This document shows, piece by piece, positions 35,490-55,969 of a stretch of DNA of 64,000 nt (position 1 is its first letter; every line of letters begins with the position of its first letter). The translations under genes were made by a program, and so were the position numbers. The stretch covers positions 682,001 through 746,000 of the forward strand of contig NZ_JACJRC010000001.1 of assembly GCF_014697025.1 (NCBI RefSeq), written 5' to 3'. Source of the stretch: Alkalinema sp. FACHB-956. GTDB taxonomy: Bacteria > Cyanobacteriota > Cyanobacteriia > Leptolyngbyales > Leptolyngbyaceae. The notes beneath the pieces are model-generated. The model made no database searches. It was not told where the DNA came from and saw only the letters and a list, made by a program, of their open reading frames with translations.

Positions 35490-38400
35490 TTAATTTTTCG
35501 CTTTGATAGGTAGGGTAATGGTAAAGGTTGTTCCTTGGCCTAGGGTTGACTGTACCGCCAAATCTCCACCATGCGTTTCTTCAACGATTTGCCGCGCGAT
35601 CGCTAAGCCTAAGCCGGTTCCTTTGCCCACACCTTTGGTTGTAAATAAATGGTCAAAGATTTTAGCTTTTACAGCCTCGCCCATGCCTTTGCCATTATCC
35701 CGCATCTGAATTTCAACGATATTGCCTCCTTTGATTGCGGTTTGAATGGTGATTTGTTGCGGATTGGCGATTAGATTGTCATAGGTTGTTTCCTGTGCCA
35801 TTTCATCAAACATGTCGATTGCATTAGCGAGAATGTTCATAAATACTTGATTCAGTTGACCTGGGAAGCATTGAATCTCAGGAAGGTCTCCATAGTTTTG
35901 CAGGACTTCGATTTCGGGGCGATGTTCATTGGCTTTCAGACGATATTTAAGAATAAGGATTGTACTATCAATCCCTTCATGCAGATTAGCGCTAACGGTA
36001 TGCTCCATGTCTGCCCGCGAGAAGGTTCGCAGGCTGGTGCTGATCGATTTAATGCGATCGGTGGCTCCGTGCATGGAATTGATGAGTTTTACAAAGTCTT
36101 GACGGAGAAAGTCTAAATCGATGTCTTCAGCGTGCCCTTGAATCGCTGGATGGGGATGGGGATAATGCGCTTGATACAGATCTAAATGCGCCAGTAGATC
36201 TTTGAGATAGTCCTTTTCATTGGTAATACTGCCGCTCAGAAATCCGATCGGGTTGTTGATTTCATGGGCGACCCCAGCGACTAAGTTACCGAGGGATGCC
36301 ATTTTCTCACTTTGCACAATTTGTAATTGAGTCTGTTCCAATTGTTGGGCGTAGTGTTGGGCTTGTTGGTAGAGTCTGGCGTTTTCCAGGGAAATGGCAG
36401 CTTGCGTGCAGAGAAAATTCAACACCAGAACACGATCGGGGGGAAAGGCCCCACTGGTGGATTGATTTTCTAGGAAGAGAATCCCAATGAAATGGCCTTG
36501 ATTGAACATGGGTAAACCCAGCACACTTTTGGGTTGGTGTTGTCTGAGATAGTCGCCAATGACGGGTAAATCGGTCTCTAGATCGTCAATTACAACTAGT
36601 TCCTGGGTGTTTTTGACGTACTGAATCAGTTTGACGGGAAGCAGGGGATGATCCGTTAGATCTTCAGTACAAAGCTGCGTTTGATTGACGGTTGCGATCG
36701 CCCGCACTTGCCAGTCTCCAGTGTCGTTCGGCAGGAGCAAAGCACAGCGATCGGCCCCCGAGTTTTGCAGAATAATTTGGCTGAGTTGATGGAGTAGTTC
36801 GTCTAATTGAATCGTGCTAGAGAGAGCTTGCGAGGCTTTGAGGATGGCCGCAAAGTCCAAAGGGTAGTTGATGCTAGCACTGCTGGAACTGGTGCGATGG
36901 TTAGAATGTACGGTGACGGTGGCTGGGGAGAGGGTCAGCAGGGTATTGAATAAGCCCGCTGAGGGATCTGCCTGCTGCAAAATGGGATGTAGCAGGTGGG
37001 GGTAGCGGCTCTCTAGGTCAGCCACTTTGGCTTGGGCACCCCAGCGGGTATAGCAGTAGTAGGCTTCCTGAATGTAGCCTGCGGCGACTTTGTCTTTGCC
37101 CCAATCCAAATAGAATTGAGCGGCAAGTTCATTGGCTAGGGCTTCATCTTGAATAAAGCCATTCTCTTTGGCGCTCGCGATCGCGCGATCGTAATAATCG
37201 ATCGCTTCCCTTATATCACCTAAGACTCGATAATATTCTGCCGCAACCAGTTCCCCGCGATGGTGGTGATTGGTGGGTGCGAAGGTTGCCCAATGCCGCA
37301 ACTGATCCTGTTGTTGTTGGACTTGCTGCAAAATAGTCGGTTGCTCCTCGGAACCTGCATTGGGATAGCAGCGAAGTTGAATGAGGGCATCAAACCAAAC
37401 GTAGAGAACTACGGTAAATGTTGCAGTTCCCCCGTGAAGGTATTCCCTCGCCTCTTGAGAAATGCGTGCAGCTTGCTGATACTCGTTAAAAAGATAATAC
37501 AGGATTGCTTGATTGACATACCAGTGGAACAATCCAGTGAAATTACTATTCACTTTCAGTGCTGGTAAATGAGTCTCTGCATCAAAGAGTTCTCCACTTA
37601 AAATTGCTGGGTGCTGGTTGTGGCCCAGTAAGTTCAACGTAGCTTGTTGGTAAGTTATTTCTAACAGCAGGGAATGTAGATGTTCATGCTTTAGGGTGAC
37701 TTGCCGATAGGCTTCCATTTTCGGGAGTAAGTCTGAAAGTACATGACCTTGGAAATAAGCATAGGCACAATAGGTACCCGCATTGAGGTTTGCGGCTTCT
37801 AAATCCCCTGTTTCGATTCCGTCTTGATAAGCTCGTTCCAATGCAGGAACTACGGTAGATAAAGCATCTTTCCAATGTTTAATAAAATAGTAATTGATAA
37901 ATCCACTACGACTGTAGGAATTCTTCAGATGTAAGCGATCGCGTAAAGCTAGCGCTAATTCTCCAAAGGCATAGCCGTTTTCAATATCACCCACTACGCC
38001 ACAGAGAATTACACCATAGTCGCTATAAGTAAAAACAGAGATGGGGCAATTACCAAACTGAAGTGAGATTTCAAGCTGCTTACAAATCAGTAATGGCATT
38101 AAAGTTGGGGCTACAACATAAGCACTGGCAGATAATCCACTGATTACTTGTAGTTGTGCGAGTAAATGAGGATCGGTCAGCGAAGGTAATTCTAGAAAAT
38201 CGTGAATCTCTCTCTCTGCCCATAGTGCTCTCGTTGCGCTGAGGGCTTGTCCAATATCGGCTGGAGTGGGCTGGGCTGGAAATTCTAGTCCTAGGGTTCG
38301 TAGCAATTCCAAGCCTATTTGTAACGATTCTAAGAGCCGACCCTGTACACTGGCTCCAAGAATTCGATGTTGCTGTACTTTAATGGTATCTAGCAAGGTT

Positions 38401-41121: not shown

Positions 41122-44100
41122 CTACAGTGGCAAGAAAATAATCACTTCAGTTCCTTGATTGGGTTCAGAAACGACTTCGATCGATCCTCCCTGCTTCGCA
41201 ACGATCGCATAGCTAACGGATAGTCCTAATCCTGTCCCTTGCCCAATGGCTTTGGTGGTAAAGAAGGGATCAAATATCTGATGTTTAATGTTTTCAGGAA
41301 TTCCAATTCCGTTATCAGCAATCCGAATCACAATACCCTGTTGTGATGTGGAATCGTCATGACTGTCTGAATGACGTAATTCGGAACGAATCGTAATCGT
41401 GGGTTGCTGATGTTCATTCCAGTGATGGGGTGGCACTGCATCTAGGGCATCCAGACCGTTCATTAAAACGTTCATAATGACCTGATTAATTTGTTTCGCG
41501 TGACAGGTAATAGACGGTAGCTGGCTGTAATGTTTGACAATTTGCACGGCTGGTCGATCGGCCCTTGCGGAGTAGCGATGGTGCATGATAGACAAGGTGC
41601 TTTCAATGCCTTCATGAATATCGATCGGCTTCACTTCCGCTTCGTCGAGACGGGCAAAGTTACGCAGTTCTAGAACAATTTCCCGAATCCGGGTAGCGCC
41701 CACCTTCATCGACTTCAGCAGCGAGGGGAAATCTTTGCGGATAAATTCGATATCTTCTAAGTAGGATTCCAGTTCGTCATTGGGGTTGGGATAGGTTTCT
41801 CCGTAGCACTCCAAGGTTTCCATGAGAGTTTGATAGTAGCTATCAGCATGATCTAAATTGCTGTAGATAAAGCTGATGGGATTGTTGATTTCATGGGCAA
41901 TGCCAGCGACTAATTGGCCTAAACTGGACATTTTTTCTGATTGGATCAGTTGGGCCTGGGTCTGGCGCAGTTCTGTGAGAGTGTGTGATAGCTGTTGGTT
42001 TTTCTCGTGGAGTTCTTGGGTTCGTTGCTGAACCTTTTGTTCTAGGTTGTTGTACAGGCGTGCATTTTCTAGGGAGATGGCGGCTTGGGATGTGAGCAGT
42101 TGTAGAACTTCCAAGCGATCGCGGGTAAAGGCTCCGGCGGTGATGCGATTTTCTAAATACAACAGTGCAATCAGTTTCCCTTGATTCAAAATCGGAGTGC
42201 AGAGTACACTTTTGGGTTCCTGGGTTTGGAGATAGCGATCGACAATCCCTGAGTCGGTTTTCGTGGCATCATCGAGCACGATTGGTCTTAGCGTGTGCTT
42301 CACAGTTTGCACGATCGCAATCGGGAGATCGGCACTCTCTTCCAGAAGGGTTTCAGCGAGGATCGTTTGGTAATCTCCCGTGCTAGGACAGACGGAGGTC
42401 ATGGCCTCGATCGTCCATTGATTGTCCCGAGGGAGAATCAGTGCTCCTTTTTTAGCCCCTGAATTCTGTAACACTAAGGTCATCAGTGCTTGCAGCAAAG
42501 TGTCCCAATGAATTTCCCGCGACAGGGATTGGGAGGCTTTCAGAATCGCGGTTAAATCGAGGGCTGCGGAGAGGGAGGTATGATTCGAAATAACGGTGGG
42601 ATTGCTTTGGGTGACGAGGGTAGAGGTCTGTTGGGCTGTGGTCGATCGTCGGGTAATGGTGTCAAGGGGTTGATTTTGCAGAATGGACTTCAACAGTTGA
42701 GGATAGCGTTTCTCCAAGTCATAAATTTTGGCAGTACACCCCCACCGGGCATAGCCATAGTAGGCATCTTGCAGATAAGTTTGGGCAATTTTTTCCTTGC
42801 CCCAACCCAGGTAAAACTTGGCCGCTAGTTCATTGGCAAAGGCTTCTTCCTGAATATAGCCATGGGTTCTGGCCCCGACGATCGCGCGATCGTACAGGTC
42901 AATGGCCTCGACCTGCCGATCGAAGACTCGACAGTATTCCGCCTGGACGAGATCTAATTTATGTTGGTAATTCATGGGGGCATGGTGTGCCCAAGTCTTT
43001 AATTTTTGTAGGTTTTGTTCTAACCGTTGCTTGGAAGGTTCGTGATCGGTTTGCCACTGAAGATAAGCGAGTCTCGCCAAGGAATCATAGAAATAGTAGA
43101 GGGGCATCATGATTAACGCCGCCGCCCCGCCGAGATACTGCTCAGCGAAGTCTGAACTGGCGATCGCGTCGTCCCACCGTTCAAACCAAATGTTGAGGAT
43201 CAGTTTATTAATCAACAAATGTGCCAGAGCAACGTAATCGCTAGCAGCTTGGTGTTGAGCTAGCATCTCATCTTCGTTATAAATCGTACCGAGGATGCGG
43301 CAAGGATCGGCTGCCGGGGTAATGAGGTTGAGCACTATTTGATGGTAGATCTTTTGATACCCCAGGATGGCTCCTTGATTGAGTCGTTCTAAGACCTGTT
43401 CATACTGTTCAATTTCTAAAATCAGGTTGGGAAGCGGCTGCCCTAGGGCGTAGGCATGGAAGCAGTAGGTATAGGCCGCATAGGCGGTGTAAGCAGAATC
43501 TCCCCCTTCTAAGCCATAGGTATAGCCTGCTTGGAGTTGAGGTAAGGTATTGCGGATGTGTTCTTTCCAATGGGTGATGAATAACCCGTTCATTAAGAAG
43601 GCGCGTGGCCGAAATTCACGATCGCCCAACTTGTTGCAAATATCGACCGCCAGTTGCCCAAAGGCCTGTCCCGCATCATATTCATCTAACATGGCGCAGT
43701 GGAGTAACCCGTAGCATGAAATGAGGTAAGTGGATGCGGGGCACACACCAAATTGGAGGCTAATCACCAATCCACAGTAAGGTAAGAGGGGATACAGGGC
43801 GGGGGCGGATAGGTAAGTGGGGGCGGCCAGTTTCGCGAGGATGCGGGTGATGGCGATCGCGCGTTCATCCGTTGCCAGGGGTAAATGAATGAGGTCAGCG
43901 GGCTGGCGATCGCCTAGGGTTTGGCGGGCTTCGGCTAGGGCGTTTGTATAGTCTTCAAAGGTGGGGTTTTTGGGAAACTGAATGCCAAATTGTTCTAAGA
44001 CTTGCAGGCCCAGTTGCACGGATTCCAACAATTTTCCTTGGGCTACAAGCGCTTCAATGTGAATTTCCTGTGCCTGAACCCGATCGAGATCGGTTTTTGC

Positions 44101-46623
44101 ATGGCGATCGATTTCCGCCAGCCATCGATCCATGGGGGCAAAATCGCCCTTCAGATAATAGGCTTCAGTGGCCTCGGTATAGAGGGATAAAGCACAGGCA
44201 TAATCCTGCTGCCAGAGTTTAGGCGTGAACAATTCGATCGCCCGCTGGAAATAATCGGCAGCAGCGGCATAGGCTGTCGAGCGTTTGGCTTGTTGTCCTG
44301 CGGCTAGGTTCAGTTGGGCCAGTTGTTGCCGCTCCTGTGGATTCCCAATCAATTGGATCGCACAGTTCAAGTGATTGACAATTGCAAACACTTTATTGCT
44401 GTGGAGATCGTCTGGAGTACAGTCTTGCAGCAGAAGTTGACCAATCTGTAAGTGGGTCGCTAATTTTTCATCGGCCTGAATCAGATAGTAGGCGGCCTGT
44501 TGCACCCGATCGTGGAGAAAGCGATAGGGGACTTTGATGGAATCTAGCGTGGCAGTTACGCTACTGTCGCCTTGGAAAAATTTGTAGGTTTCGTTGACGG
44601 GCAAAATTAGGCGTTCTTGCAGGGCCTTCCACAGGGCAGTCGCTACTTCGACTTCTGACTGTTGGGAGACGATCGCTAGAGTATGGAGATCAAACTGCGC
44701 GCCGATGCAGGCGGCTAGCTTCAACATGGTTTGAGTGTCTTGGGGCAGTTTTTGTAATTGCTGCGCCATAAACTCAACAATGTTGTCGGTGAGTACCTGG
44801 GATTTAATTTGATAGAGATCCGATCGCCATTCGCCAGTTGCGGCATTGAACTGGAATCCCCCCTCTTCGTATAAAGCTTGCAGCAATTGGGTGGTGAAAA
44901 AGGGATTGCCCTTCGTTTTGCGGTAAACCAATTCTGTCAGCGATCGACTCAGTTCAGCCAGCTGGGCGTTGGGGGTTGCTCCCACCCCGGCTAAAGCATC
45001 GGTGATCAGTTGAAGAATATGCGGCTGACTTAAGGGTTGAAGCGTAAGGGTCTGCGTACTCACCTCGGATTTTTCCAGCTCAGTCACCGTTAGGATGAGA
45101 GGATGCACCGGAGAGACTTCATTATCTCGATAAGCGCCTATTAACAGGAGATACTGGGTATTCTCCATCAGCAGTTGGAGCAGCTGAAGCGAGGCTAAAT
45201 CCGCCCATTGCAGATCGTCTAGAAAGATGACGAGCGGGTGTTCTGGTGTGGTGAAGACCTGAATAAATTTTTGAAATAACCCGTTGAAGCGACTTTGGGC
45301 GGCATTGCCGGACAGGCTAGGAACAGGGGGCTGTGGGCCAATTAGAAGCTCCAGTTCGGGGATGACTTCAATAATCACCTGGCCGCTGTCACCGATCGCG
45401 GTCAGAATTTTCTGTTTCCACGCTTCCAGTTGACCATCGCTTTCGCTGAGAATCTGGCCAACGAGATTCCGAAAGGCTTGCACGAAGGCAGAAAAGGGGA
45501 TGTTACGGTTGAATTGGTCAAATTTGCCTTTAATGAAATAGCCCCGTTGTCGAACGATCGGTTTATGCACTTCATGTACGACCGCCGTTTTGCCAATGCC
45601 AGAAAATCCGGCGACCAGCATGACTTCTGCTCCGCCTTGGGCCACGCGATCGAAGGCGGCTAATAACGTTTGTACTTCCTCTTGGCGACCGTAGAGTTTT
45701 TCGGGAATGGTGAAACGATCGCTGCGATCGCGACTGGCTAGTTCAAAGGGCGCAATGGCTCCACTATCCTGGAGTTGATGGAGACAAATTTCCAAGTCAT
45801 ACTTCAGCCCCAGGGCGCTCTGGTAGCGATCTTCGGCATTTTTAGCCATCAATTTGGCAACAATATCCGCAACAACTGAAGGAATCGGGCTGGTTTTGCC
45901 GTCCCCAGTCACTTGATCCAGCCGAGGGGGGTGCTTGGCAATGTGGCAATGGATTAACTCCATGGGGTCATTGGACTGGAAGGGAAGTTGCCCCGAAAGC
46001 AGTTCAAACAGAGTGATGCCCAAGGAATAAAAGTCGCTGCGATAGTCGATTCCCCGGTTCATGCGTCCCGTTTGCTCGGGGGAGAGGTAGGCAAGGGTGC
46101 CTTCCAATCCGCTGGGTGTGGTTGCTTCTTGATTTTCCTTGGATAAAAGTGATGCAATGCTGAAGTCAATCAGCTTGATCTGGTGGGTGGTGGGCTGGAT
46201 GAGGATATTGGCAGGTTTGATATCCTTGTGAATAACTTGGTTTTGACTGAGATCGTGGAGAATGTCGCTGAGTTGGATGGCAATTTCGAGTCCCTGGTGC
46301 AGACTTAAGGTGTGGGATTCGAGATAGTCCCGCAACGAAATAGCGCCAATGTCTTCCATGACCATGGCGTAGCTATTGCCGTGGGAGATGAGATCCTGGG
46401 GATGAATAATGCCCGCACTGTCTAAATTTTTCGCGATCGTATATTGATTGCGAAATTGCAGGAGTTCGTTAAAAGTGGGATAGTCCGCGCGGAGAAACTT
46501 GATAATGGTCGGCTGGTTATCGAGTTCTTGAATGGCGCGATGCACTTCAGTGCGGCTACCTTGGTATAAACATTCGACGAGACGATACCCGGATAATGTT
46601 TTTGCCTTGATAATGGTTTGCAT
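41122..46623 (-). CDS. Giant Ser/Thr kinase-AAA ATPase-GAF-histidine kinase (1833 aa), paralogue of its neighbour
   Basis: Same domain order as the gene at 35.5 kb. I start it at ATG 46623 (MQTIIKAKTLSGYRLVECLY) because this aligns with its paralogue; an upstream ATG at 46656 adds 11 poorly matching residues. Kinase: QVIHKDIKPANILI (near 133) and LIDFSIASLL in place of DFG. ATPase: MLVAGFSGIGKTAVVHEVHK (near 341), VIFLDDLQWADLASLQLL. GAF: GALILPRDNQW, SVLCTPILNQGKLIALLYLE. Histidine kinase: MSSLGQLVAGIAHEINNP (near 1573) and ADNGIGIPENIKHQIFDPFF. Unlike the paralogue, its kinase tail matches the haem kinase at 33.4 kb and the HK at 57.1 kb more closely (SFIYSN). Cytoplasmic. Confidence 0.95.
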   Translation of the reverse strand: MQTIIKAKTLSGYRLVECLYQGSRTEVHRAIQELDNQPTIIKFLRADYPTFNELLQFRNQYTIAKNLDSAGIIHPQDLISHGNSYAMVMEDIGAISLRDYLESHTLSLHQGLEIAIQLSDILHDLSQNQVIHKDIKPANILIQPTTHQIKLIDFSIASLLSKENQEATTPSGLEGTLAYLSPEQTGRMNRGIDYRSDFYSLGITLFELLSGQLPFQSNDPMELIHCHIAKHPPRLDQVTGDGKTSPIPSVVADIVAKLMAKNAEDRYQSALGLKYDLEICLHQLQDSGAIAPFELASRDRSDRFTIPEKLYGRQEEVQTLLAAFDRVAQGGAEVMLVAGFSGIGKTAVVHEVHKPIVRQRGYFIKGKFDQFNRNIPFSAFVQAFRNLVGQILSESDGQLEAWKQKILTAIGDSGQVIIEVIPELELLIGPQPPVPSLSGNAAQSRFNGLFQKFIQVFTTPEHPLVIFLDDLQWADLASLQLLQLLMENTQYLLLIGAYRDNEVSPVHPLILTVTELEKSEVSTQTLTLQPLSQPHILQLITDALAGVGATPNAQLAELSRSLTELVYRKTKGNPFFTTQLLQALYEEGGFQFNAATGEWRSDLYQIKSQVLTDNIVEFMAQQLQKLPQDTQTMLKLAACIGAQFDLHTLAIVSQQSEVEVATALWKALQERLILPVNETYKFFQGDSSVTATLDSIKVPYRFLHDRVQQAAYYLIQADEKLATHLQIGQLLLQDCTPDDLHSNKVFAIVNHLNCAIQLIGNPQERQQLAQLNLAAGQQAKRSTAYAAAADYFQRAIELFTPKLWQQDYACALSLYTEATEAYYLKGDFAPMDRWLAEIDRHAKTDLDRVQAQEIHIEALVAQGKLLESVQLGLQVLEQFGIQFPKNPTFEDYTNALAEARQTLGDRQPADLIHLPLATDERAIAITRILAKLAAPTYLSAPALYPLLPYCGLVISLQFGVCPASTYLISCYGLLHCAMLDEYDAGQAFGQLAVDICNKLGDREFRPRAFLMNGLFITHWKEHIRNTLPQLQAGYTYGLEGGDSAYTAYAAYTYCFHAYALGQPLPNLILEIEQYEQVLERLNQGAILGYQKIYHQIVLNLITPAADPCRILGTIYNEDEMLAQHQAASDYVALAHLLINKLILNIWFERWDDAIASSDFAEQYLGGAAALIMMPLYYFYDSLARLAYLQWQTDHEPSKQRLEQNLQKLKTWAHHAPMNYQHKLDLVQAEYCRVFDRQVEAIDLYDRAIVGARTHGYIQEEAFANELAAKFYLGWGKEKIAQTYLQDAYYGYARWGCTAKIYDLEKRYPQLLKSILQNQPLDTITRRSTTAQQTSTLVTQSNPTVISNHTSLSAALDLTAILKASQSLSREIHWDTLLQALMTLVLQNSGAKKGALILPRDNQWTIEAMTSVCPSTGDYQTILAETLLEESADLPIAIVQTVKHTLRPIVLDDATKTDSGIVDRYLQTQEPKSVLCTPILNQGKLIALLYLENRITAGAFTRDRLEVLQLLTSQAAISLENARLYNNLEQKVQQRTQELHEKNQQLSHTLTELRQTQAQLIQSEKMSSLGQLVAGIAHEINNPISFIYSNLDHADSYYQTLMETLECYGETYPNPNDELESYLEDIEFIRKDFPSLLKSMKVGATRIREIVLELRNFARLDEAEVKPIDIHEGIESTLSIMHHRYSARADRPAVQIVKHYSQLPSITCHAKQINQVIMNVLMNGLDALDAVPPHHWNEHQQPTITIRSELRHSDSHDDSTSQQGIVIRIADNGIGIPENIKHQIFDPFFTTKAIGQGTGLGLSVSYAIVAKQGGSIEVVSEPNQGTEVIIFLPL

Positions 46624-46738
46624 ACCGACGCCTCTATCCCAGATCTGGTTGAACACTCACTGGCCGACTAATTACTTTCCAATATGCCCGACGGCTCTAG
46701 GGATCTAACCTGGGAAATTGCGCAATCTTAAGCGGTTG

Positions 46739-47537: not shown

Positions 47538-49214
47538 CTAAACCTGACTTCTAATACGGCTGCGGAACCGCGTAAAGCCAAAATTAGCCCCCGGATTACT
47601 GGAAATGGTATTCAAGCCATAGACCAGTGAGCCGTTGGGATTGCTGGGATTGGTGCAAGCGTTCCCGCTGGGTAAGGGTTGCAGGGGACTTAAAAAGGAT
47701 CCTGCTGCGGTGGGGGCGCTATTGTTTTGGCTGAGGAGGCTACTGCCTGGAATATAGGTGGTGCCTTCTGGAATTTGGTCGCAGAGGTTCACGTTAAAAA
47801 TCGGTTGATTGCCGTCGGCGAGGTAGTAGATGGTGTACTCAATGTCGTCCCCCGATCGCAACGCATCAATAGGATTAACATTGAGCAGGCCGATCGGAGC
47901 CCCTGTGGACAGTTGATTCCACCCTAAGGCCGTGTCGTCTTCCGTGCTGGGATCATTCACGAATTGGTTAAATTCTGTGCGCACTCCATTGCGAATCACG
48001 GCAGTGATTCGTTTCACCAGACGTAAACGCTGCACGACTTGACCGTCGGGTGGGGGTGGTGGGGGTGGTGGCGGTGGCGGGGTGGTGAGATCACTAATCG
48101 CTAAGTTACGCAGTTCATGGATGGCGGTGGAAAAGCCCGTTGAAGCTGCAAACCCAACTTTGAGCGAAGCGGGCACCGGCGGCTGACCGGGTACAGCTTT
48201 GAGATCTAATTGATTGACGACGGTTTGATAGGCGGTTCCAGTGCCCGTAAAGTCAATTTCGACGGTCAGAATGCTGTCGGGCGTCAGGGTAATGCGAACT
48301 CGCCGGGGGGTGACCGCCGATCGTGGAGTATTGGTGTTCACCGTGGCTGCATCGTCAATACTGGGGCCCAAATTTCTGCCTTCAAGGTAAGCATAGCCCC
48401 CCAAGCCATTGCCTGCTCCCCGCAGTACCACGGAGTCGGGAGATTGGCCAATTCCACCCACCCGGCCTTGGGTTCCATTGGAGAAATTGCCAAACTCATC
48501 AAACCCAATGCCAATATAGCCCCCCGCTACTCCAGGGGTATCACTGGAGCTGCCGCCAGCAAGGGTTTCCTGAGCATAGCCGAGGGATCCACCAAAGGCC
48601 CCTGGGGTCGGGTTGGTCACATTCCCATCCAGTAAGAAGAAACTGAGGCCATCGGCTCCAGGGGGCGCGCCATTACTACGTCCGTTGTAAATAAAGAAAT
48701 CAAATTCAATGCGCAGTCCGTTACTGGTAGGGAATGCCTGGTTGAGAATGATCGATCCCCGTTCTCCCTGCGTGTTGAAGTTCCGAGGGGGAGGGCCTTG
48801 ATCAATAAAGCCAACGCGGTTCGAGGTGAGCCGCAGAGCACCACTACTGAGAGCATCCACGCCACTGGGGGGGAGTCCATCCAGTCCGGCGGCACAGCCC
48901 GGTAAGAACGGATCAGAGGGATTGTTGTTCCCCGTGAGACAAACGCTGGGGCCTTTGATGACGCCATCGACTGTATTGGTATTATTACTGCCAACAATGC
49001 GATAGAGCCCTGGATTGGTTAAGGTGCTGCCCGTAAAGGTTTCCTGGAATAGGAGGGTTTGGGCCTGGGCCGATCGCGGGAGGAGCACTAGGCCACAGAC
49101 GAAGGGTACCAGGGCGAATAACCGGGTGATGCGTGGCTGAGTCAGGCGTGGCTGAGTCAGGCGTGGCTGAGTCAGGCGTGGCACAGGGTGTTGCACAGAC
49201 TTATGGTTTCTCAC
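47538..49214 (-). CDS. Secreted lectin-like protein with C-terminal DUF11-type domain
   Basis: 558 aa. I start it at GTG 49214 (translated MRNHKSVQHPV) because GAGGATGG lies just upstream and an earlier start would overlap the previous gene by 137 bases. The long n-region contains the repeat LTQPR three times, then hydrophobic LFALVPFVCGLVLL and the cleavage site SAQAQ. Residues about 50-330 look like an L-type lectin sandwich (LRIEFDFFIYNGRSNGAPPG, ADGLSFFLLDG, GYIGIGFDEFGNF). A Pro run (TTPPPPPPPPPPPDGQ) links to a DUF11-like beta domain (LRSGDDIEYTIYYLADGNQP, LCDQIPEGTTYIPGSSLL). Last gene of the envelope operon, 10 bases after its neighbour. Probably a surface or matrix protein. Confidence 0.8.
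   Translation of the reverse strand: MRNHKSVQHPVPRLTQPRLTQPRLTQPRITRLFALVPFVCGLVLLPRSAQAQTLLFQETFTGSTLTNPGLYRIVGSNNTNTVDGVIKGPSVCLTGNNNPSDPFLPGCAAGLDGLPPSGVDALSSGALRLTSNRVGFIDQGPPPRNFNTQGERGSIILNQAFPTSNGLRIEFDFFIYNGRSNGAPPGADGLSFFLLDGNVTNPTPGAFGGSLGYAQETLAGGSSSDTPGVAGGYIGIGFDEFGNFSNGTQGRVGGIGQSPDSVVLRGAGNGLGGYAYLEGRNLGPSIDDAATVNTNTPRSAVTPRRVRITLTPDSILTVEIDFTGTGTAYQTVVNQLDLKAVPGQPPVPASLKVGFAASTGFSTAIHELRNLAISDLTTPPPPPPPPPPPDGQVVQRLRLVKRITAVIRNGVRTEFNQFVNDPSTEDDTALGWNQLSTGAPIGLLNVNPIDALRSGDDIEYTIYYLADGNQPIFNVNLCDQIPEGTTYIPGSSLLSQNNSAPTAAGSFLSPLQPLPSGNACTNPSNPNGSLVYGLNTISSNPGANFGFTRFRSRIRSQV
49131..49183 (+). repeat. 15-bp tandem repeat inside a signal-peptide region
   Basis: GCGTGGCTGAGTCAG is repeated three times exactly (49131, 49146, 49161) with a fourth partial copy. 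It is in frame on the minus strand, encoding repeated LTQPR ahead of the hydrophobic core of the signal peptide. Copy number could vary without breaking the gene. Confidence 0.95.
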
Positions 49215-49224
49215 AGTTCCATCC

Positions 49225-51318
49225 TCACGGTTCGATTTGCAGGTCGTCTTCCTGCACGATGACTTCAATGTCGCGAATATCTTTGTAGATAATTTCCGTT
49301 CGCCGATCGCGGGCGTAATCGAGTTTCCGGGAACCGTCGGAGAGGCGTTGCCGTTCCCCAAAGGTGCGAATGGTCATGCGGCTGGGGTCGATGCCCTTAC
49401 GGAGCAAATAATTCCGAACAGACAAGGCACGGCGTTTGCCCAGTTCAATATTGTAGGCATCACTGGCGCGGGGATCGGTGTGGCCATGGAGGTCGATGAT
49501 GATTGTGGGATTGGCTTTGAGCACTGCTACCACTTTATCGAGGACTTGGGCGCTGCGATCGCTGATGAAAGATTGATCCAGCGCAAAGTGAATATTTCTG
49601 GGAACCTTTAAGCGAATCGGCTCCGGTGGCTGTACAGGCGGTGGCTGTACGGGGGGCTTGGGAGGGTCTGGGGGCGAAACGCAAACGGGTGGGGTCGCCG
49701 GAGTAGGGGTATCGGGAATCGCTTGGCCGATCGTCGCGTTAATCGCCGGTTCCGAGGTGCCGTATTGCGGGTGGTGGGAGATCGCGCTAATGCGATCGCC
49801 ATTTTTCAACCCACTTTTAACGGTGGCGTAGAACTTACCATTTTTGATTTCGCTAATGGTTAACAGCAAGGTTCCTAGCGCCCCGGCGTCTGTGGGTTTG
49901 TCTTTGACTTGATAAATTTCAACGGTAGACCCCTCATCGGCAGTACCGGATAGGACAACGGCATCGCCTTGCATTGGAATTTGCCGTTGATCAAATTGCG
50001 GGGCATTAATCGCTGCATTACCCGTATCGCGGCGACGATTGGGACTGTTACGATCGGGATTTAATCCATCGCCCCGTTGATAATCGGAGACATCGGTATT
50101 GTGTTGGGTGTTGAGATCAATGCTCAGCCCTTCCAGATCACTGAACTGATTGCGCTCGATCAAATTACCCACACTCGCAGGGGCGGCAGCGACAACAACC
50201 CCCGCAGCGGTTTGATGCTGAATCGTGTTTTGAGTCACGTGATGCCGATTGCCCATTAGGTAAACCGCAGCACGACGTAACCGACGACCGTTGTACACGA
50301 TCGAATTTTCGTAAATGTTGATTGATCCGTCGGGTTTGAATAAATAAATGCCGCTACCATCGTTACCACAAATGTGGTTGCCAGTGATGTCCGTACGATC
50401 GACCTTACCTTCCAAGCGAATAGCATCGGGCATTCCCGCAATGCCATTGCCAGTAATCACATTCTGCGTAATTAATGTATTTTCTGCTTTGACTCCGGTA
50501 ATAATGGCACTGCCGTCATGGTTAGCAATCCAGTTATTGCGAATCGTGGTTCCCGTACTGTTGAACACAGACACGCCAAAGGCCGAGGTGCGATCGGGCA
50601 TGGATTGGTCATGTCGAATCCCCAGCCAGTTGTTTTCAATCAGGATATTTTTCGGCGGAATATCCCGATCGTAAAAGGGTGCATTGTTGGCAGGGGGTTG
50701 CTGCTGGCGAATATCCGGCGGGGGCGCAAGGTGGGCGATAAAAATATCCGCTGGCGGCGTACTGGCAGTTTCCCCGTGGCTGGCGGTAAAGCCGTAGAGA
50801 CTCAAACCGCGAATGGTGACATTATCGCTGGTGATCGTCAGCCCGCGCAGAATCTCGACTCCGGCAGCTGGGGTCAGTTCAACGATCGGTTGGCGTAGGT
50901 TGGCATTTTGGGCCAGGATCACCCGATCGCCTGCGTAGCCCGCTTGGGTGGTGCCGTCGATCGTCAAAGACCGCTTAATCTCCGGCAGGGCTTGCTGTAA
51001 TTGGATCACGGTTTGTCCCGAAGGAAGCTGGAACCCGATCGTCACCAGTGGCGGTTGCCCGGAGGGACTTGTGGGGAGCGTAATCAGTTGCCGTTCCGCT
51101 GGACTGAGTTTCTCCGGAGCCAGATCGCCGTTGGCAACGCTGATGGCCTCCCGCAGGGTCAAGCGATCATCCGGCGCGATCGTGTCGTCTGCACTATTGA
51201 CCGTTAACACCGCCGCGTCGATCGGGTTAGCCCTGGCTGCATTAGTCAGCACTCCCAGGGGCATCAGGTGGCCGAATACCCCGAACAAACTTAGTAACCC
51301 TAGAAATTGAACCTTCAT
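49225..51318 (-). CDS. Right-handed beta-helix protein with C-terminal OmpA domain
   Basis: 697 aa with a signal peptide (MKVQFLGLLSLFGVFGHLMP ... ANA/ARA). It begins with the LREAI motif typical of choice-of-anchor and polymorphic surface proteins (LTLREAISVANGDL). A parallel beta-helix follows (about 140-420: ILRGLTITSDNVTIRGLSLY, NILIENNWLGI, GTTIRNNWIANHDGSAI, GSGIYLFKPDGSINIYENSI). After a Pro-rich linker (PKPPVQPPPVQPPEP) comes an OmpA peptidoglycan-binding domain (about 570-690: IIIDLHGHTDPRASDAYNIE, GKRRALSVRNYLLRKGIDPS). It likely anchors to peptidoglycan and displays the helix outward or in the periplasm. Its start overlaps the stop of the beta-barrel gene (ATGA). Confidence 0.9.
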   Translation of the reverse strand: MKVQFLGLLSLFGVFGHLMPLGVLTNAARANPIDAAVLTVNSADDTIAPDDRLTLREAISVANGDLAPEKLSPAERQLITLPTSPSGQPPLVTIGFQLPSGQTVIQLQQALPEIKRSLTIDGTTQAGYAGDRVILAQNANLRQPIVELTPAAGVEILRGLTITSDNVTIRGLSLYGFTASHGETASTPPADIFIAHLAPPPDIRQQQPPANNAPFYDRDIPPKNILIENNWLGIRHDQSMPDRTSAFGVSVFNSTGTTIRNNWIANHDGSAIITGVKAENTLITQNVITGNGIAGMPDAIRLEGKVDRTDITGNHICGNDGSGIYLFKPDGSINIYENSIVYNGRRLRRAAVYLMGNRHHVTQNTIQHQTAAGVVVAAAPASVGNLIERNQFSDLEGLSIDLNTQHNTDVSDYQRGDGLNPDRNSPNRRRDTGNAAINAPQFDQRQIPMQGDAVVLSGTADEGSTVEIYQVKDKPTDAGALGTLLLTISEIKNGKFYATVKSGLKNGDRISAISHHPQYGTSEPAINATIGQAIPDTPTPATPPVCVSPPDPPKPPVQPPPVQPPEPIRLKVPRNIHFALDQSFISDRSAQVLDKVVAVLKANPTIIIDLHGHTDPRASDAYNIELGKRRALSVRNYLLRKGIDPSRMTIRTFGERQRLSDGSRKLDYARDRRTEIIYKDIRDIEVIVQEDDLQIEP

Positions 51319-54300
51319 CGTGCACCCTCCGCCAGCAGTTTTTCCATGCGAGTCAACCCACTAAAGTGCTGGATAGCCAGAGATTTGGGTTGGGTTTGAA
51401 TCGATTGGGACAATGGAATAATGGATTGTCCCGGTGATGCCTGGGATAGTGATTGAGACAGTGATTGGGATAGTGATTGGGACAGTGATTGGGATAGCGG
51501 TGGCGATAACGGCACGATCGACGACGGACTGAAGGAAGCCTCCGAAACGTTGAAGGCTGCATTCGGCTGTTGGGTCACCACGGATTCCTGCTGTTGCTTG
51601 GGCGCGATGCGTTGGCGACCGAAGCCAAACAGATCGTTCAACTTCACGGACAGGGCAACATACGGCCCACCCCGCGATCGCGAGCCATCAAAATCAACAT
51701 CATCGGTGCGTCCAAAGCTGTAGCCAGCAGCTACCCGCAGATTGGGGGTGATGTAATACCCCGCTTCCAGGAGGAAGCCCAACTCATCGCTACTGGTTTG
51801 GGTTTGGTGAATCCAGCGTACTTCGCCGACCAGATCCCAGTTGTAGCCCAGTTTGTAGCCTGCCCGGAATTGCGTCAGCGTGGTCGTATTTTTGCCAACC
51901 AGATCCCGCGCTAGGTAGGAGGTGGTCGATCGCAGGGCGAATTTGCTGTAGAACTCCCAGCGGAAACTGGGGGCGTAGATTAATTCCACCGCTCCCAGGT
52001 GCACCTTCGATCCCGACCCCACGCCAAACAGCAACGTACTGGGGCTGATGTCGGGATTTTCGCGATATTCATAGCGCAGTAGAGCATTAAAGCGATCGTC
52101 GTTGGGATCGCGATAGGCCAGTCCCAGTTTGAGATTTTTCGTATCCCCCAGGCCCACGATCGTTTGGTTGGCGTAATTGGCCTGCTGGAACCGTCCCAGC
52201 ACAGTCAGGGCGGGTGACACCTTGCCAACGGCGGCAGCGGAAATCACCATATTGTTGCCTTCGCTGGAGTTGCGCTTTTCAAAGCGGGCGCTGGCCTTGA
52301 AATTGGGATTGTCAGTATATTCAAAGCCAATGCTGTAGCTATCCCCAGAGGTGACGCCCAGGGACGCCGCATTCTGCCCGACGGCGTAGGGCTGGGCGTA
52401 CTGTTGCCCGGTGCCTGTATAGGTGAAGATGTCGCCGAAAATCCGCTCATAGGCCAGATTCATCCGCAGTCCCGGCGAGAGCTTGAACTGGTGCTGCAAG
52501 CCGATCGCCCCTTGGCTCGACCAACCGTTAATCCCATTCAACACGGAATAGCGTCCGGTTAGGGTCGTATCTTCGCTGAGTTTTTGATCGACCAGCGTTT
52601 CAAAGGTCGTCAGGGAATTGCGGGCAAAGTCTCCGCCGGAGAGGAACTGCTGGGCCACCCGCAGCGTGACGCCGGGGAAAGCTTTCCAATCGAGGCCCAC
52701 GGTGGTGCGATCGGGATAGAGGGGATCGCGCTGCCCACCGAGGCTCAGTTCGTTCTGGACTCGGAATAGCAAGGTATCGGTGATCGGGTAGGTAAACCGG
52801 GAGACCAGTTGGTTGCTATCCTCCGTCAGGCGATTGGCGATGCGATCGTCGCGGGTGCGATTGACCCAATCCAGGCTGAGGGAGGCCGTGCCAAACTTTT
52901 GGGACACGCCCGCACTAATTGTCGTCAGGGAATTATCCACCGGACTACCGGGAGGCGCTTGCACTCCCGGTTCAAACAGCGACTCAAAGACTGTGCGTAC
53001 CTGGGTGGCGATGCCGTAGTTAATTTCCCGATCGACCCGCGCTTGGAACTGCGTCGAGTCGCTCACTTTGGCGGCGAACTCGGCCCCGTAGCGGGTTTGT
53101 CCCGGCGCAAAGCTAAAGGTGGCATTGTTGGCAAAGCCTTCGTCTACGGATTTGTAGTAGGCGCGGGCGGCGATATCGGGCGAAAACTGCGCGATCGCTT
53201 CCACGCGATAGGCGCTACCGCTGACATAGCCAAAGGGCGAATTGTTATTCGATCGGGCAAACTCCGCCACAATGCGACTGGATTTACCGAGGGAAATTTG
53301 GGCATCGGCTCCGTAGAGTTCAAAGTCCTGTCCCCCCAGATCTTCCCGCAGGTAGGATGTGGCTAACCAGCTTTCCTGACCCAGTTCTCGGGCGAGATTG
53401 TATTGCAATCGACCGGCGTAGAGCTTGGTGTCATTATCTCCCCCATCGTACTGATAGGTCACGACAATCCGCCGCACCAACGTTTGGCCAAATAGATCCG
53501 CCTCCGTTTGTAGAACCGGTTTGCGGAAGATTAATGCGCCGCGATCGTAATCAATTTCGTAATCGCGATTGCGGGATAAATTTAGCCGTTTAACAACAGT
53601 GCCGGGACGGTTTAACTCCTCGGTTTCAATGAAAACGTTTTCACTCCCGGCTAGAACTAAGCGTCGCGATAGGAAATAGTAGCCGCTGGTGCCGTTCGGC
53701 GCGATCGTATCCCGCTGGAACCCCTGCAAGTTATTGCCATACATCAGTGTGGCTTGCAGGTTGCCCAAGTTGTAGTTACCCTTAAAGCCGTGCAGCGATC
53801 GTTGCGTGGCGGTGAACAGTTGAGAGGGACGGGAAAACTCGTCGGTTTTGTAATCTCCCCACATGAAGTAGTCCGAACCTGCATCCGGCACCGGAGAAGT
53901 GCGTTCAAACTTGAGGAACACACTGTCGATCGACGGTGTTAGGAAATCAACCGTAGAGCTATCACCATAGACAGGATAGACCTGATCGCAAAACTGATCG
54001 GCTCGGAATAAGCTGGTGGTGCCTGAACAGGTTTCGTTGAGGTTGCGTTGACTGTTGTAGGCTCCGGTAAAAAGCCAATCGCCTACAGTGCCGATCGCGA
54101 AGACCGCAGCGTTGGCTTCCACGGCGGTTCCGGTCAAATCATCCCGCAGAAAATCCCGAAAGCTGCCGTAGTAGTTTGTTCCCGCTGCCCCGATCCGCAG
54201 ATTCAGGGTTCCGGAGACAAGGGCAGGCCGCAGGTTGGTGATGAACTCCACCGACGTGTAGACTTCCACAGGTGTGGACGGCGGTAGGGAAAATTTTGCT

Positions 54301-54980
54301 GCCGGAATTTTAGCGTTCTGCTGGGGTTGGATCACTCGATCGAGCCCTGCACGGATCCTCACCCTTTGGGGGATGAGATTGGCCTGCAAGTCCACACTGA
54401 ACTCGCCATTGCGGGCCATAACTTGAAATCCGGCCAAATCCGTGTCGTAATCAGCTCCGATGAACTTCCCGGCGGTGGTGGTCAGCGTCACCAAGGCATC
54501 TTGGCTGATGGGGGTGCCATTGGCATCCAGAATGCGACCTGTTAAGCTAACCCGCGATCGGCCATCGGCGGGAATCCGCGAATCACTGCTGGGCTTCAGT
54601 TCGATCTGACTGGGGGGCAGGACGGTGGGAATCGCCGGTGCCGTTGGCGAGCTGCTGGGTACGGCTATGGGTGGATCCAGTGGAGGGCTTTGGGCTAGCG
54701 TTGCTCCGGCTGCGATCGGTTCCGTTGCGATCGGTTCCGTTGCGATCGATTCTGTTGTGGGCTGTGCTGTATCGTCGCTGATGGGGGCCAGCAGAGCGGC
54801 GGGGTTGGAACTGCCCCAATTTGCCTGTGCTTCCTCCAGGGAGACAGGTGAAGCCGTCGTCGCTTCCGATTGAGAGCCCAGGGGTCGATCGGTGGCTTGG
54901 GTTTGACCGACGGCAGGTTTGCTGGCGAAGCTAAGTGCGAAGGTGCCTAGGAGGCTGATCAAAACGGTAGAAGCCTTCAT
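51315..54980 (-). CDS. Very large outer-membrane beta-barrel with N-terminal Ig-like domain
   Basis: 1221 aa with a signal peptide (MKASTVLISLLGTFALSFAS). A Pro/Thr/Ala-rich spacer with IATEPIATEPIA repeats is followed by a Big/Ig-like domain (about 130-230: SRIPADGRSRVSLTGRILDA, DALVTLTTTAGKFIG). Some 850 residues of alternating short beta strands then form a barrel, with many aromatic strand ends (NYNLGNLQATLMYGN, YDIDYD-type turns, LGLAYRDPNDDRFNALLRYE, NWDLVGEVRWIHQTQ, LRVAAGYSFGRTDDVDFDG). The Arg/Asp-rich strands and loops resemble TonB-dependent or usher-type barrels, but I see no plug domain. The C-terminus after the barrel is a Ser/Gln-rich tail with SQSL repeats. It overlaps both neighbours by 1 and 4 bases. 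Transport or secretion role inferred. Confidence 0.82.
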   Translation of the reverse strand: MKASTVLISLLGTFALSFASKPAVGQTQATDRPLGSQSEATTASPVSLEEAQANWGSSNPAALLAPISDDTAQPTTESIATEPIATEPIAAGATLAQSPPLDPPIAVPSSSPTAPAIPTVLPPSQIELKPSSDSRIPADGRSRVSLTGRILDANGTPISQDALVTLTTTAGKFIGADYDTDLAGFQVMARNGEFSVDLQANLIPQRVRIRAGLDRVIQPQQNAKIPAAKFSLPPSTPVEVYTSVEFITNLRPALVSGTLNLRIGAAGTNYYGSFRDFLRDDLTGTAVEANAAVFAIGTVGDWLFTGAYNSQRNLNETCSGTTSLFRADQFCDQVYPVYGDSSTVDFLTPSIDSVFLKFERTSPVPDAGSDYFMWGDYKTDEFSRPSQLFTATQRSLHGFKGNYNLGNLQATLMYGNNLQGFQRDTIAPNGTSGYYFLSRRLVLAGSENVFIETEELNRPGTVVKRLNLSRNRDYEIDYDRGALIFRKPVLQTEADLFGQTLVRRIVVTYQYDGGDNDTKLYAGRLQYNLARELGQESWLATSYLREDLGGQDFELYGADAQISLGKSSRIVAEFARSNNNSPFGYVSGSAYRVEAIAQFSPDIAARAYYKSVDEGFANNATFSFAPGQTRYGAEFAAKVSDSTQFQARVDREINYGIATQVRTVFESLFEPGVQAPPGSPVDNSLTTISAGVSQKFGTASLSLDWVNRTRDDRIANRLTEDSNQLVSRFTYPITDTLLFRVQNELSLGGQRDPLYPDRTTVGLDWKAFPGVTLRVAQQFLSGGDFARNSLTTFETLVDQKLSEDTTLTGRYSVLNGINGWSSQGAIGLQHQFKLSPGLRMNLAYERIFGDIFTYTGTGQQYAQPYAVGQNAASLGVTSGDSYSIGFEYTDNPNFKASARFEKRNSSEGNNMVISAAAVGKVSPALTVLGRFQQANYANQTIVGLGDTKNLKLGLAYRDPNDDRFNALLRYEYRENPDISPSTLLFGVGSGSKVHLGAVELIYAPSFRWEFYSKFALRSTTSYLARDLVGKNTTTLTQFRAGYKLGYNWDLVGEVRWIHQTQTSSDELGFLLEAGYYITPNLRVAAGYSFGRTDDVDFDGSRSRGGPYVALSVKLNDLFGFGRQRIAPKQQQESVVTQQPNAAFNVSEASFSPSSIVPLSPPLSQSLSQSLSQSLSQSLSQASPGQSIIPLSQSIQTQPKSLAIQHFSGLTRMEKLLAEGAR
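51445..51492 (+). repeat. 12-bp tandem repeat in the barrel gene tail
   Basis: Four units alternating GATAGTGATTGG and GACAGTGATTGG (first unit GATAGTGATTGA). On the coding strand they give repeated SQSL near the C-terminus. In frame and therefore tolerant of copy-number change. Confidence 0.9.
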
Positions 54981-55969
54981 TATCGTCCCTCCCCAAAGGT
55001 GGGTGTGACCGCAAAATTCATCCGTGCGAGGCCACCGGGAGCCAGGTTGACCATGCGGGAGGTGCTGTTGTTTTCGATGCGGTAGAGATTGGGGGCGATC
55101 GTATAACCGGGCAAACTGGTTAGATCCAGCGTGCCGACGTGGGTGCCCGCCAGAACTTGGCTGAGCGAGAATAAACCATTGCTATCGGTGGTGACGCGAT
55201 TACCGTCTTCCATGAACAGAACCGCATTGGGCACGCCCGGTTCTCCCGGCTGTTGCTGCCCGTCAAAGTTCTTATCCACAAAGACCCGACCAACGATCGT
55301 GCCGCAATCCGACAGAATCCCGCGCCGAATCTGGAGCTGGTGACTGGCCGTATTGCTGACATAGCGGCCTAGGGGATCGGTGCCTTCCGAAACAGCCAGG
55401 TTGCGACCATTGCCGCGTATGGCATCGGGGGTGACCAAGGCACCATAGACCAGCGATAGTGTTTGTTGCTGAGGAACGAGTGTTCCAGGATAGCGAAAGG
55501 TGACTACCCGACCGTTAACGGTTGTAGTGACATTCTCCAACGGCGTGAGGGGGCCGTTAGTATTACTGATGCCTGCCCGCACGGTATTGGGCAAAAATTG
55601 TAACCCTTGGGGTAACGTATCGGTGATTGTGATGTCATTGGCATTGGCGGAGCCCGTGTTGCGAATCAACAAGCGATAAATGACGGTATCGCCCGGTTCT
55701 GCCGCAACTCGATCGCCTGCTTTAATAATTTCTAAAGCAGGACGGTTGATGATGGAGACGATCGCAGGAACTTGAGTTGGGTTGGAATTAACGCCTACAG
55801 GACTAGGGCCATTCAGCGTTGTGCGAAAGTTAGCAGTGGCAGTGTTGTTGATAGTAATGGGTACTTCAGCAGTATGACTGGGTAACTCCCAATTCCCTAT
55901 CAAGAGGCTGATCAAAAGGCCAAAACCACAGAGCCACCATTTACCCAACGAATGCGTTGGAAAATTCAT
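54980..55969 (-). CDS. DUF11 / SdrD-B-like secreted protein
   Basis: 329 aa with a signal anchor or signal peptide (WWLCGFGLLISLLIG). A DUF11 domain (about 80-200) shows IIKAGDRVAAEPGDTVIYRL, IRNTGSANANDITITDTLPQ and GLQFLPNTVRAGI. An SdrD B-like domain (about 225-305) has VGRVFVDKNFDGQQQPGEPG and ALFMEDG/VTTDSNGLFSLSQV. Such domains form beta stalks in surface proteins, and DUF11 repeats are widespread in cyanobacterial surface proteins. It is the first gene of the envelope operon and overlaps the barrel gene by one base (TAATG). The 17-bp repeats at 56057-56090 lie 88 bases upstream of its start. Confidence 0.88.
   Translation of the reverse strand: MNFPTHSLGKWWLCGFGLLISLLIGNWELPSHTAEVPITINNTATANFRTTLNGPSPVGVNSNPTQVPAIVSIINRPALEIIKAGDRVAAEPGDTVIYRLLIRNTGSANANDITITDTLPQGLQFLPNTVRAGISNTNGPLTPLENVTTTVNGRVVTFRYPGTLVPQQQTLSLVYGALVTPDAIRGNGRNLAVSEGTDPLGRYVSNTASHQLQIRRGILSDCGTIVGRVFVDKNFDGQQQPGEPGVPNAVLFMEDGNRVTTDSNGLFSLSQVLAGTHVGTLDLTSLPGYTIAPNLYRIENNSTSRMVNLAPGGLARMNFAVTPTFGEGR

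Follow-up and report, generated by a model that had tools for sequence, protein, structure and literature searches.

A conserved giant-barrel operon of Alkalinema sp. FACHB-956 and its proposed role in outer-membrane display of exchangeable adhesins

The window analysed was a stretch of 64,000 nucleotides from the cyanobacterium Alkalinema sp. FACHB-956 (contig NZ_JACJRC010000001.1, positions 682,001 to 746,000), and the system in question is a minus-strand operon of four genes, P1 to P4, which includes the gene for a giant outer-membrane barrel protein. The operon is a real, conserved system and not an artefact. The four genes are judged, with a probability of about 0.55, to form an outer-membrane display system for exchangeable adhesins, whose subunits would be coupled through a domain split between two proteins and sealed by a probable Lys-Asn bond. 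The giant barrel P2 would be held to peptidoglycan via the OmpA domain of P3. In the proposed direction of assembly P1 would be the base, with its C-terminal SdrD_B-like domain next to the barrel and its N-terminal strand pointing outward, and P4 would be the tip, carrying a passenger (lectin-like here) on a C-terminal DUF11/CnaA-like domain without its last strand. The Asn-bearing strand with which mature P1 begins would dock into the gap of the P4 domain in the manner of chaperone-usher subunits; in a sister operon the donor strand would come from the N-terminus of a DUF7925 "shaft" protein of about 860 amino acids (aa). The donor Asn would then probably be isopeptide-bonded to the Lys of the tip domain, with the Asp assisting. 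The features on which this proposal is built are as follows.

54980..55969, minus strand: P1, DUF11 and SdrD_B-like protein of 329 aa, proposed base subunit
51315..54980, minus strand: P2, giant outer-membrane barrel protein of 1221 aa, proposed anchor and export platform
49225..51318, minus strand: P3, right-handed beta-helix and OmpA-type domain, 697 aa, found in 42/62 testable loci
47538..49214, minus strand: P4, lectin-like passenger and conserved C-terminal domain, proposed tip adhesin
47541..48026, minus strand: C-terminal domain of P4, incomplete CnaA/DUF11-like, with Lys and Asp and without the Asn strand (alignment, model)
48108..48830, minus strand: L-type lectin-like part of P4 (PF18483, 3.7e-6, 27.4 bits, cut-off 78.3)
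55826..55864, minus strand: orphan Asn-bearing strand of P1, residues 36-48, within VPITINNTATANF, proposed donor strand

Conservation and co-occurrence of the operon

P1 and P2 overlap by 1 base and P2 and P3 by 4 bases, and 10 bases separate P3 from P4, so that the overlapping four-gene operon described in the original prediction (made by a model from the letters and open reading frames (ORFs) of this DNA) is borne out by the coordinates. Its view that all four proteins are exported agrees with the signal-peptide-like stretch seen by eye at the start of each. The start of P4 was taken as GTG 49214; the mechanical ORF reaches back to TTG 49361, and an alternative start is possible.

Species genomes were scanned with P2, which gave 113 relatives, and 80 loci were kept, 79 of them from records titled cyanobacteria. 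Loci were testable for P1 if at least 1.5 kilobases (kb) of upstream DNA were present, and for the downstream genes if at least 6 kb of downstream DNA were present. P1 was located directly upstream of the barrel by profile search in 71/71 testable loci, while a gene with a P4-type C-terminal domain lay downstream on the same strand in 58/62 and the beta-helix/OmpA gene P3 in 42/62. The genes are kept together in the synteny search that the original prediction had suggested, and because the arrangement is conserved in relatives it is not due to chance. Many loci carry two extra genes ahead of P1: a gene for a protein of about 860 aa, which matched DUF7925 in the four cases scanned, and a shorter one (about 180-260 aa), designated U.

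A set of 386 cyanobacterial genomes was also searched. The barrel was found in 46, with 43 strong matches and three weaker ones (G032, G035, G047). At E <1e-100, P1 was present in exactly the 43 strong-barrel genomes, and the C-terminal domain at E <1e-20 in the same 43 and also in G332 (a match at the end of a contig); the strong matches to barrel and C-terminal domain thus fell into 43 genomes with both, one with the domain only, none with the barrel only and 342 with neither. P3 at full or beta-helix length was present in 23 of the 43; its other matches were to the OmpA domain only.

More telling than this table are the cases in which barrel and C-terminal domain are unlinked. In G278, P1 and the barrel share a contig and no C-terminal-domain gene occurs in the 19 kb around them; the lone C-terminal-domain gene of that genome lies inside another contig. 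The window's own genome (G000) has a C-terminal-domain gene at C1:506 kb, away from the barrel. It belongs to a third, barrel-less set (L098, C1:501-507 kb) that comprises a DUF7925 gene, U and the C-terminal-domain gene and lies more than 200 kb from the window's operon; a full longer version of the operon is found on contig C28 (L091). In G116 the C-terminal-domain gene is on the opposite strand and converges on the barrel. The lone gene of G296 lies 195 bases from a contig end and was not counted as unlinked.

Two minor observations concern these searches. Locus L059, titled a "Candidatus Gracilibacteria" metagenome-assembled genome, has the operon in a form typical of cyanobacteria, and its contig is probably misassigned. 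Some of the barrel matches in G019, G042, G068, G185, G191, G289 and G352 run through one or two stop codons; these may be pseudogenes, or the matches may extend beyond the end of the gene.

The truncated C-terminal domain and the orphan N-terminal strand

The C-terminal domain of P4 was matched by TIGR01451 (29.7 bits, cut-off 24), a DUF11-like assignment that the original prediction had missed. Pfam at E 0.01 was silent on this domain alone, though it aligns with 52 relatives; 40/53 of the aligned domains match DUF11 at that threshold, the window's not among them. Iterated profiles gave 68 matches above 80 bits, all at the extreme C-terminus of proteins of 559 to 2067 aa. Nine of the passengers carried by these domains were scanned: three contained SdrD_B repeats, one SdrD_B with a lamin-tail domain, three DUF11-type domains and one a sub-threshold FlgD-type domain, and one was Pfam-blank. 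Clustering of the passengers by BLAST placed 66/68 in one group and was uninformative. The lectin part of P4 is one of several exchangeable passengers on the same C-terminal domain; since its L-type lectin match is sub-threshold, the "lectin-like protein" of the original prediction is retained as a lead and not as a firm assignment. Short in-frame RLTQP repeats (49134-49178, minus strand) occur at the P4 start, ahead of the signal sequence.

Two residues of the domain, Lys5 and Asp83, were invariant by alignment in 53/53 aligned domains and in 73/73 distinct proteins (with a stricter pattern, 49 of the same 73 showed the Lys motif and 69 the Asp motif), and in P1 the residue aligned with Asp83 is the DUF11 Asp. 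P1 itself was matched by DUF11 above the cut-off (3.8e-10), with SdrD_B sub-threshold, and by sequence to the solved DUF11 structure 9IFR (3.8e-6). Its DUF11 triad, K83/D117/N190 (alignment positions 54, 88 and 161), is invariant in 53/53 relatives, from which an isopeptide bond is predicted for this domain. The P4 domain carries no Asn strand of its own, the chain stopping before it. This truncation was judged against the complete DUF11 domain of P1, in which about a dozen further residues run from the matching strand to the Asn, and against two solved isopeptide domains. In 69/73 P4-type proteins the end of the chain consists of a G, then one to three residues, then an RF-type pair that has five or six residues behind it; in three others only the G is missing, and P4 of the window has eight residues past RF.

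The P4 domain was modelled as a single chain, as was P2 (residues 100-1160), using AlphaFold2 (predicted local distance difference test score, pLDDT, 90.4; predicted template modelling score, pTM, 0.86); its last strand covers residues 149-158 of 162. By VIA the domain aligned end to end with isopeptide domains of pilins and adhesins at Z up to 8.2, among other Ig-like folds. 9IFR was a weak sequence match to it (0.016) and was absent among the VIA matches listed. For the two listed chains whose triad is given for the aligned domain in the accessible part of PMC12617251 (Table 1), the alignment stops short of the Asn: at 312 in 2X9Z, where the Asn is 318, and at 697 in 5DZ9, where it is 703.

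A strand of the form hydrophobic-x-Asn-x-Ala, the pattern of the last DUF11 strand, stands straight after the signal peptide at the start of P1 and of the DUF7925-type proteins. The motif was found at the N-terminus of 68/77 P1 and 29/31 shaft proteins as against 7/70 P4-type, 11/83 P2, 5/53 P3 and 3/34 U proteins and 58/465 other ORFs; looser patterns, applied without controls, were found in 78/80 P1 proteins and 31/31 shafts. Inside DUF11 arrays the motif lies upstream of 34/50 domain starts. As it is weak as a test there, a junction profile was used instead, built from 56 segments, picked with a similar motif, of continuous DUF11 arrays in six proteobacterial proteins. At 5 bits or more the profile recognised 22/31 shaft and 23/80 P1 N-termini versus 4/668 controls, 1/73 P4-type, 1/87 P2, 0/53 P3 and 0/34 U proteins.

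The shaft proteins are also truncated at the C-terminus like P4, with Lys in 31/31 and Glu in 30/31 at the likely catalytic place. U ends at the same strand and has Gln in place of the acid in 31/34, which may be read as if bonding were the selected difference. U is only a candidate for the role of a PapD-type chaperone; no periplasmic chaperone of that type was apparent in the operon, and no genome-wide search for one was made.

Relatives outside the cyanobacteria join the same parts differently. Plasmid records gave 24 matches, of which two are cyanobacterial. The DUF11 and SdrD_B that precede the barrel were seen in three layouts: a giant chain, a fusion to the barrel, and separate proteins. 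As read from the sequences, the cut between the separate proteins falls within a DUF11-like domain, ahead of its last strand, and it is chiefly on this that the donor-strand reading is based. A single polypeptide comprises DUF11, SdrD_B and the barrel in Acinetobacter, in keeping with the proposed place of the SdrD_B-like domain of P1 next to the barrel; an OmpA gene follows and then a 978-aa protein that ends in an apparent truncated DUF11-like domain. Upstream are a weak U relative (40 bits) and, by eye, pieces of a broken shaft-type gene. In Vibrio (L088) the order is a giant DUF11 chain whose C-terminal part is P1-like, the barrel, and an OmpA gene. Sinorhizobium (L090) and Eleftheria (L089) have a giant chain and a barrel, and the L089 barrel protein begins with OmpA. 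A giant gene also stands ahead of the barrel in L105 and L107 (with a small ORF between in L107); in L104 the giant gene is annotated as OmpA family, and L106 has insertion sequences and a short ORF only. On an Acinetobacter haemolyticus plasmid (L086) the ORFs for barrel, OmpA and tip are all complete, and a stretch that by eye resembles a shaft-type gene (L086:5377-8722) is split over several reading frames.

The giant barrel and its OmpA partner

Three further features were located in P2 and P3.

54333..54614, minus strand: Ig-like domain before the barrel, P2 residues ~123-216 (sub-threshold Big_1; model; fold comparison)
53514..53726, minus strand: very conserved barrel segment, P2 residues ~419-489 (dense invariant alignment columns)
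49321..49587, minus strand: OmpA domain of P3, residues 578-666 (PF00691, 1.4e-16, over cut-off), proposed peptidoglycan anchor

The original prediction had described P2 as a 1221-residue barrel with an Ig-like domain and no visible plug, to be checked by structure prediction. Model and Pfam agree with this. In the AlphaFold2 model (m5bcb2980fd12; pLDDT 78.7, pTM 0.69) an Ig-like domain precedes a long run of strands, of which DSSP gives 42 with a length of 8 residues or more, 39 with 9 or more and 37 with 10 or more, and a plug-type TonB receptor is without Pfam support. The barrel of SprA has 36 strands, and if most of the modelled strands form one barrel, that of P2 would be at least as large. 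Of the two outcomes on which the original prediction was to be abandoned, genes not kept together in other genomes and a standard TonB-dependent receptor with a plug, neither was observed.

Pfam gave only sub-threshold matches to P2 (Big_1, Invasin_D3 and others), with no TonB plug, TonB-receptor or autotransporter family up to E 1, and NCBIfam gave none. Assignment of the barrel as a TonB-dependent receptor with a plug was rejected for want of Pfam support. Membership of the usher family was likewise rejected: the Usher model (PF00577), run genome-wide with a positive E. coli control, gave no match at E 0.001 to either of the two barrel copies and found a different gene (C3:162280-163734, 1.8e-39, in a 784-aa frame). 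Given that separate gene, a chaperone-usher system may be present in this organism as well. Among solved structures no relative of the barrel was found by phmmer up to E 10, and by profile only one match at chance level (E 1.5). Foldseek placed SlpA, SprA, LptD and FimD among the matches listed, with query template modelling scores (TM-scores) of at most 0.22 in the best 50, and no fold identity is claimed on that account. By VIA, FimD, SprA and plain porins had similar Z and no single family stood out; the best FimD alignment (Z 13.9, 325 residues, root-mean-square deviation 9.2) was about equalled by plain porins. The Ig-like domain was matched by VIA to Ig-like domains of GH2 enzymes, with Z up to 14.6. 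In several proteobacterial relatives the matched region lies around the very conserved segment, which could possibly be a plug or gate. Short in-frame LSQS repeats (51441-51497, minus strand) lie in the tail of P2 past the barrel.

P3 was matched by the Pfam families Beta_helix (1.4e-10) and OmpA, and its OmpA domain would be the anchor to peptidoglycan. In relatives the OmpA domain is either part of the barrel ORF or encoded by the gene that follows; the former arrangement was seen in six of the 386 genomes (G058, G083, G193, G211, G282 and G346), three of which were checked on the DNA, and in a fourth case checked from a plasmid. The peptidoglycan-binding beta-helix of the original prediction is consistent with both family matches, the binding being predicted, and is not universal to the system.

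Competing readings, related systems and surroundings

Several observations weigh against the proposal. No C-terminal-domain gene was found downstream in 4/62 testable loci (L021, L058, L069 and L071). With P1 taken at 1e-10, 47 genomes matched, of which G195 and G354 (4e-11) have no barrel, and with the C-terminal domain taken at 1e-6, 48 genomes matched, of which G103 and G262 (weak, ~5e-7) have no barrel; the co-occurrence counts are moreover not independent, because the genomes are related, and a Fisher value computed from the barrel-domain table cannot be taken as a fair probability. The Asn motif is short and occurs in 26-63% of random 50-aa windows, and the junction profile misses most P1 N-termini. 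The C-terminal domain has internal Asn columns at position 78 (64/73) and position 129 (61/73): Asn78 shares a strand with Asp83, five residues ahead of it, and therefore probably faces the other way, and Asn129 may be an unusual internal partner of the Lys. The best VIA score for the P4 domain is modest, Foldseek of this domain gave zero matches under E 0.001, and the quality of the barrel model is middling.

An extended form of the proposal, put forward tentatively and judged less likely than not, is a new, sortase-independent covalent pilus pathway of diderms built on split isopeptide domains, with DUF7925 as shaft, P1 as terminator and U as cap or chaperone. An acceptor (Lys with Asp or Glu) at one C-terminus would meet a donor (Asn) at the next N-terminus, and subunits would snap together as the chain traverses a giant barrel or is retained by it, a barrel with no sequence relation to ushers. 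Having both a donor and an acceptor end, the DUF7925 protein would polymerise; P4-type proteins would be the exchangeable tips; P1 would terminate the chain on the barrel; and U, with Gln for the acid, would be a non-bonding cap or a donor-strand chaperone.

It is rather unlikely that the operon is instead a secretion system in which the P4 C-terminal domain is a sorting signal read by the barrel, with no split-domain coupling and with P1 as a periplasmic or surface accessory. Varied passengers on a conserved, extreme C-terminal, Ig-like domain tied to one barrel genome-wide are what such a system would have, and Foldseek lists the type 9 translocon for the barrel at a low TM-score. This reading leaves unexplained, however, why the domain ends before the Asn strand while Lys and Asp are kept in 73/73, and why an orphan Asn strand stands at the start of P1 and the DUF7925 proteins; furthermore, none of the seven Pfam families listed for the 53 C-terminal domains at E 0.01 is a sorting-tail family. 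Non-covalent donor-strand assembly, with a structural Lys-Asp pair and a partner strand held by hydrogen bonds only, is unlikely. The donor-strand anatomy fits it equally well, and chaperone-usher assembly proceeds without a covalent bond (accessible part of PMC9715654), but the acceptor Lys with Asp or Glu and the donor Asn are the requirements of an isopeptide bond, and U with its Gln looks as if bonding had been under selection. A role of the barrel in uptake, or as a porin, with P1, P3 and P4 as loosely associated envelope proteins travelling together, is very improbable: some barrel relatives are annotated "TonB-dependent receptor" and many porins appear in the fold comparison, against which stand the lack of a TonB plug or receptor match in Pfam up to E 1, the co-occurrence with P1 and the C-terminal domain (unlinked cases included) and the Acinetobacter protein in which DUF11/SdrD_B and barrel are fused.

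The original prediction had proposed a coordinated envelope assembly by which the lectin-like protein would perhaps be secreted or displayed. The assembly itself is supported by synteny, co-occurrence and the unlinked pairs of G000 and G278; amended are the standing of P3, the lectin (now a passenger) and the key to the system, which is the truncated domain with the orphan strand. Its statement that no such system had been described agrees with the open-access literature, in which no description was found (the accessible parts of PMC9210967, PMC8779699 and PMC3597751 contain nothing on this system), and is qualified by close conceptual relatives: chaperone-usher pili, archaeal threads and CLIPPER stalk domains.

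FimH of the chaperone-usher pili has a lectin domain at its N-terminus and, at its C-terminus, an Ig-like domain without the last strand. The present operon resembles the FimD-FimH system in its outer-membrane barrel platform, in subunits with N-terminal extensions and in P4-type C-terminal domains that end, as incomplete Ig-like domains, at the strand before the Asn strand. It differs in a barrel outside the Usher family of Pfam, in DUF11/CnaA-like domains with isopeptide residues and in the associated OmpA domain. Type IX secretion combines a very large barrel with Ig-like C-terminal domains on varied cargo, and is alike in both respects; the P4-type domains, unlike its cargo, gave no Pfam sorting-tail match in the 53 scanned. 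SprA_N (PF14349) had zero matches in this genome and was also silent in all 14 controls. SpyTag/SpyCatcher is an engineered split isopeptide domain that reforms and bonds; a divided domain is common to both, engineered there and natural here if the proposal is true.

In the accessible part of PMC12617251, DUF11 is renamed CLIPPER, a solved domain (712-812) has the triad Lys 715, Asp 748 and Asn 806, and DUF7925 is listed as a predicted isopeptide domain. The CLIPPER Asn is thus near the domain end. These fibrillar adhesins share the domain family and the Lys-Asp-Asn triad with the present proteins, and an Acinetobacter example has an OmpA-like anchoring domain; the bonds treated in that part of the source are intramolecular and within single chains, whereas here the domain is apparently split over two proteins and a dedicated barrel is present. 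Archaeal threads (Saci_0406; accessible part of PMC9715654) are alike in donor-strand complementation with a proposed intermolecular isopeptide bond. They are unlike in that the proposed bond joins Asn57 to the alpha-amino group of Asp24 of the other subunit, with no Lys, and no usher was identified there. The leader of a DUF11 protein predicted to lie in the outer membrane was employed in a study of signal peptides in Synechococcus sp. PCC 11901 (accessible part of PMC13297417).

The system is best ranked with strand-complemented adhesive fibres on a barrel; if the covalent split-domain reading holds, it deserves a class of its own. If true, surface fibres would be joined by bacteria in a new manner, via protein domains cut in two, and cyanobacteria would have a dedicated route of adhesin or pilus assembly beside type IV pili. 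Many hypothetical genes of cyanobacteria and proteobacteria annotated "DUF11", "SdrD B-like" or "OmpA family" would be parts of one machine. Evolution would then couple separate proteins by split isopeptide domains, which could be a source of new protein-ligation pairs.

Promoter- and terminator-like sites were no more frequent than in shuffled sequence, and the approximately 1.1 kb upstream contains none of the listed ORFs (100 aa). A gene 139 bases downstream of the operon is, by eye, a pseudouridine synthase. Two giant ORFs, neighbours of each other, lie at 41122-46656 and 35490-40910 on the minus strand; one of them (1844 aa, translated) appears by eye to be a Ser/Thr kinase - ATPase - GAF - histidine kinase sensor.

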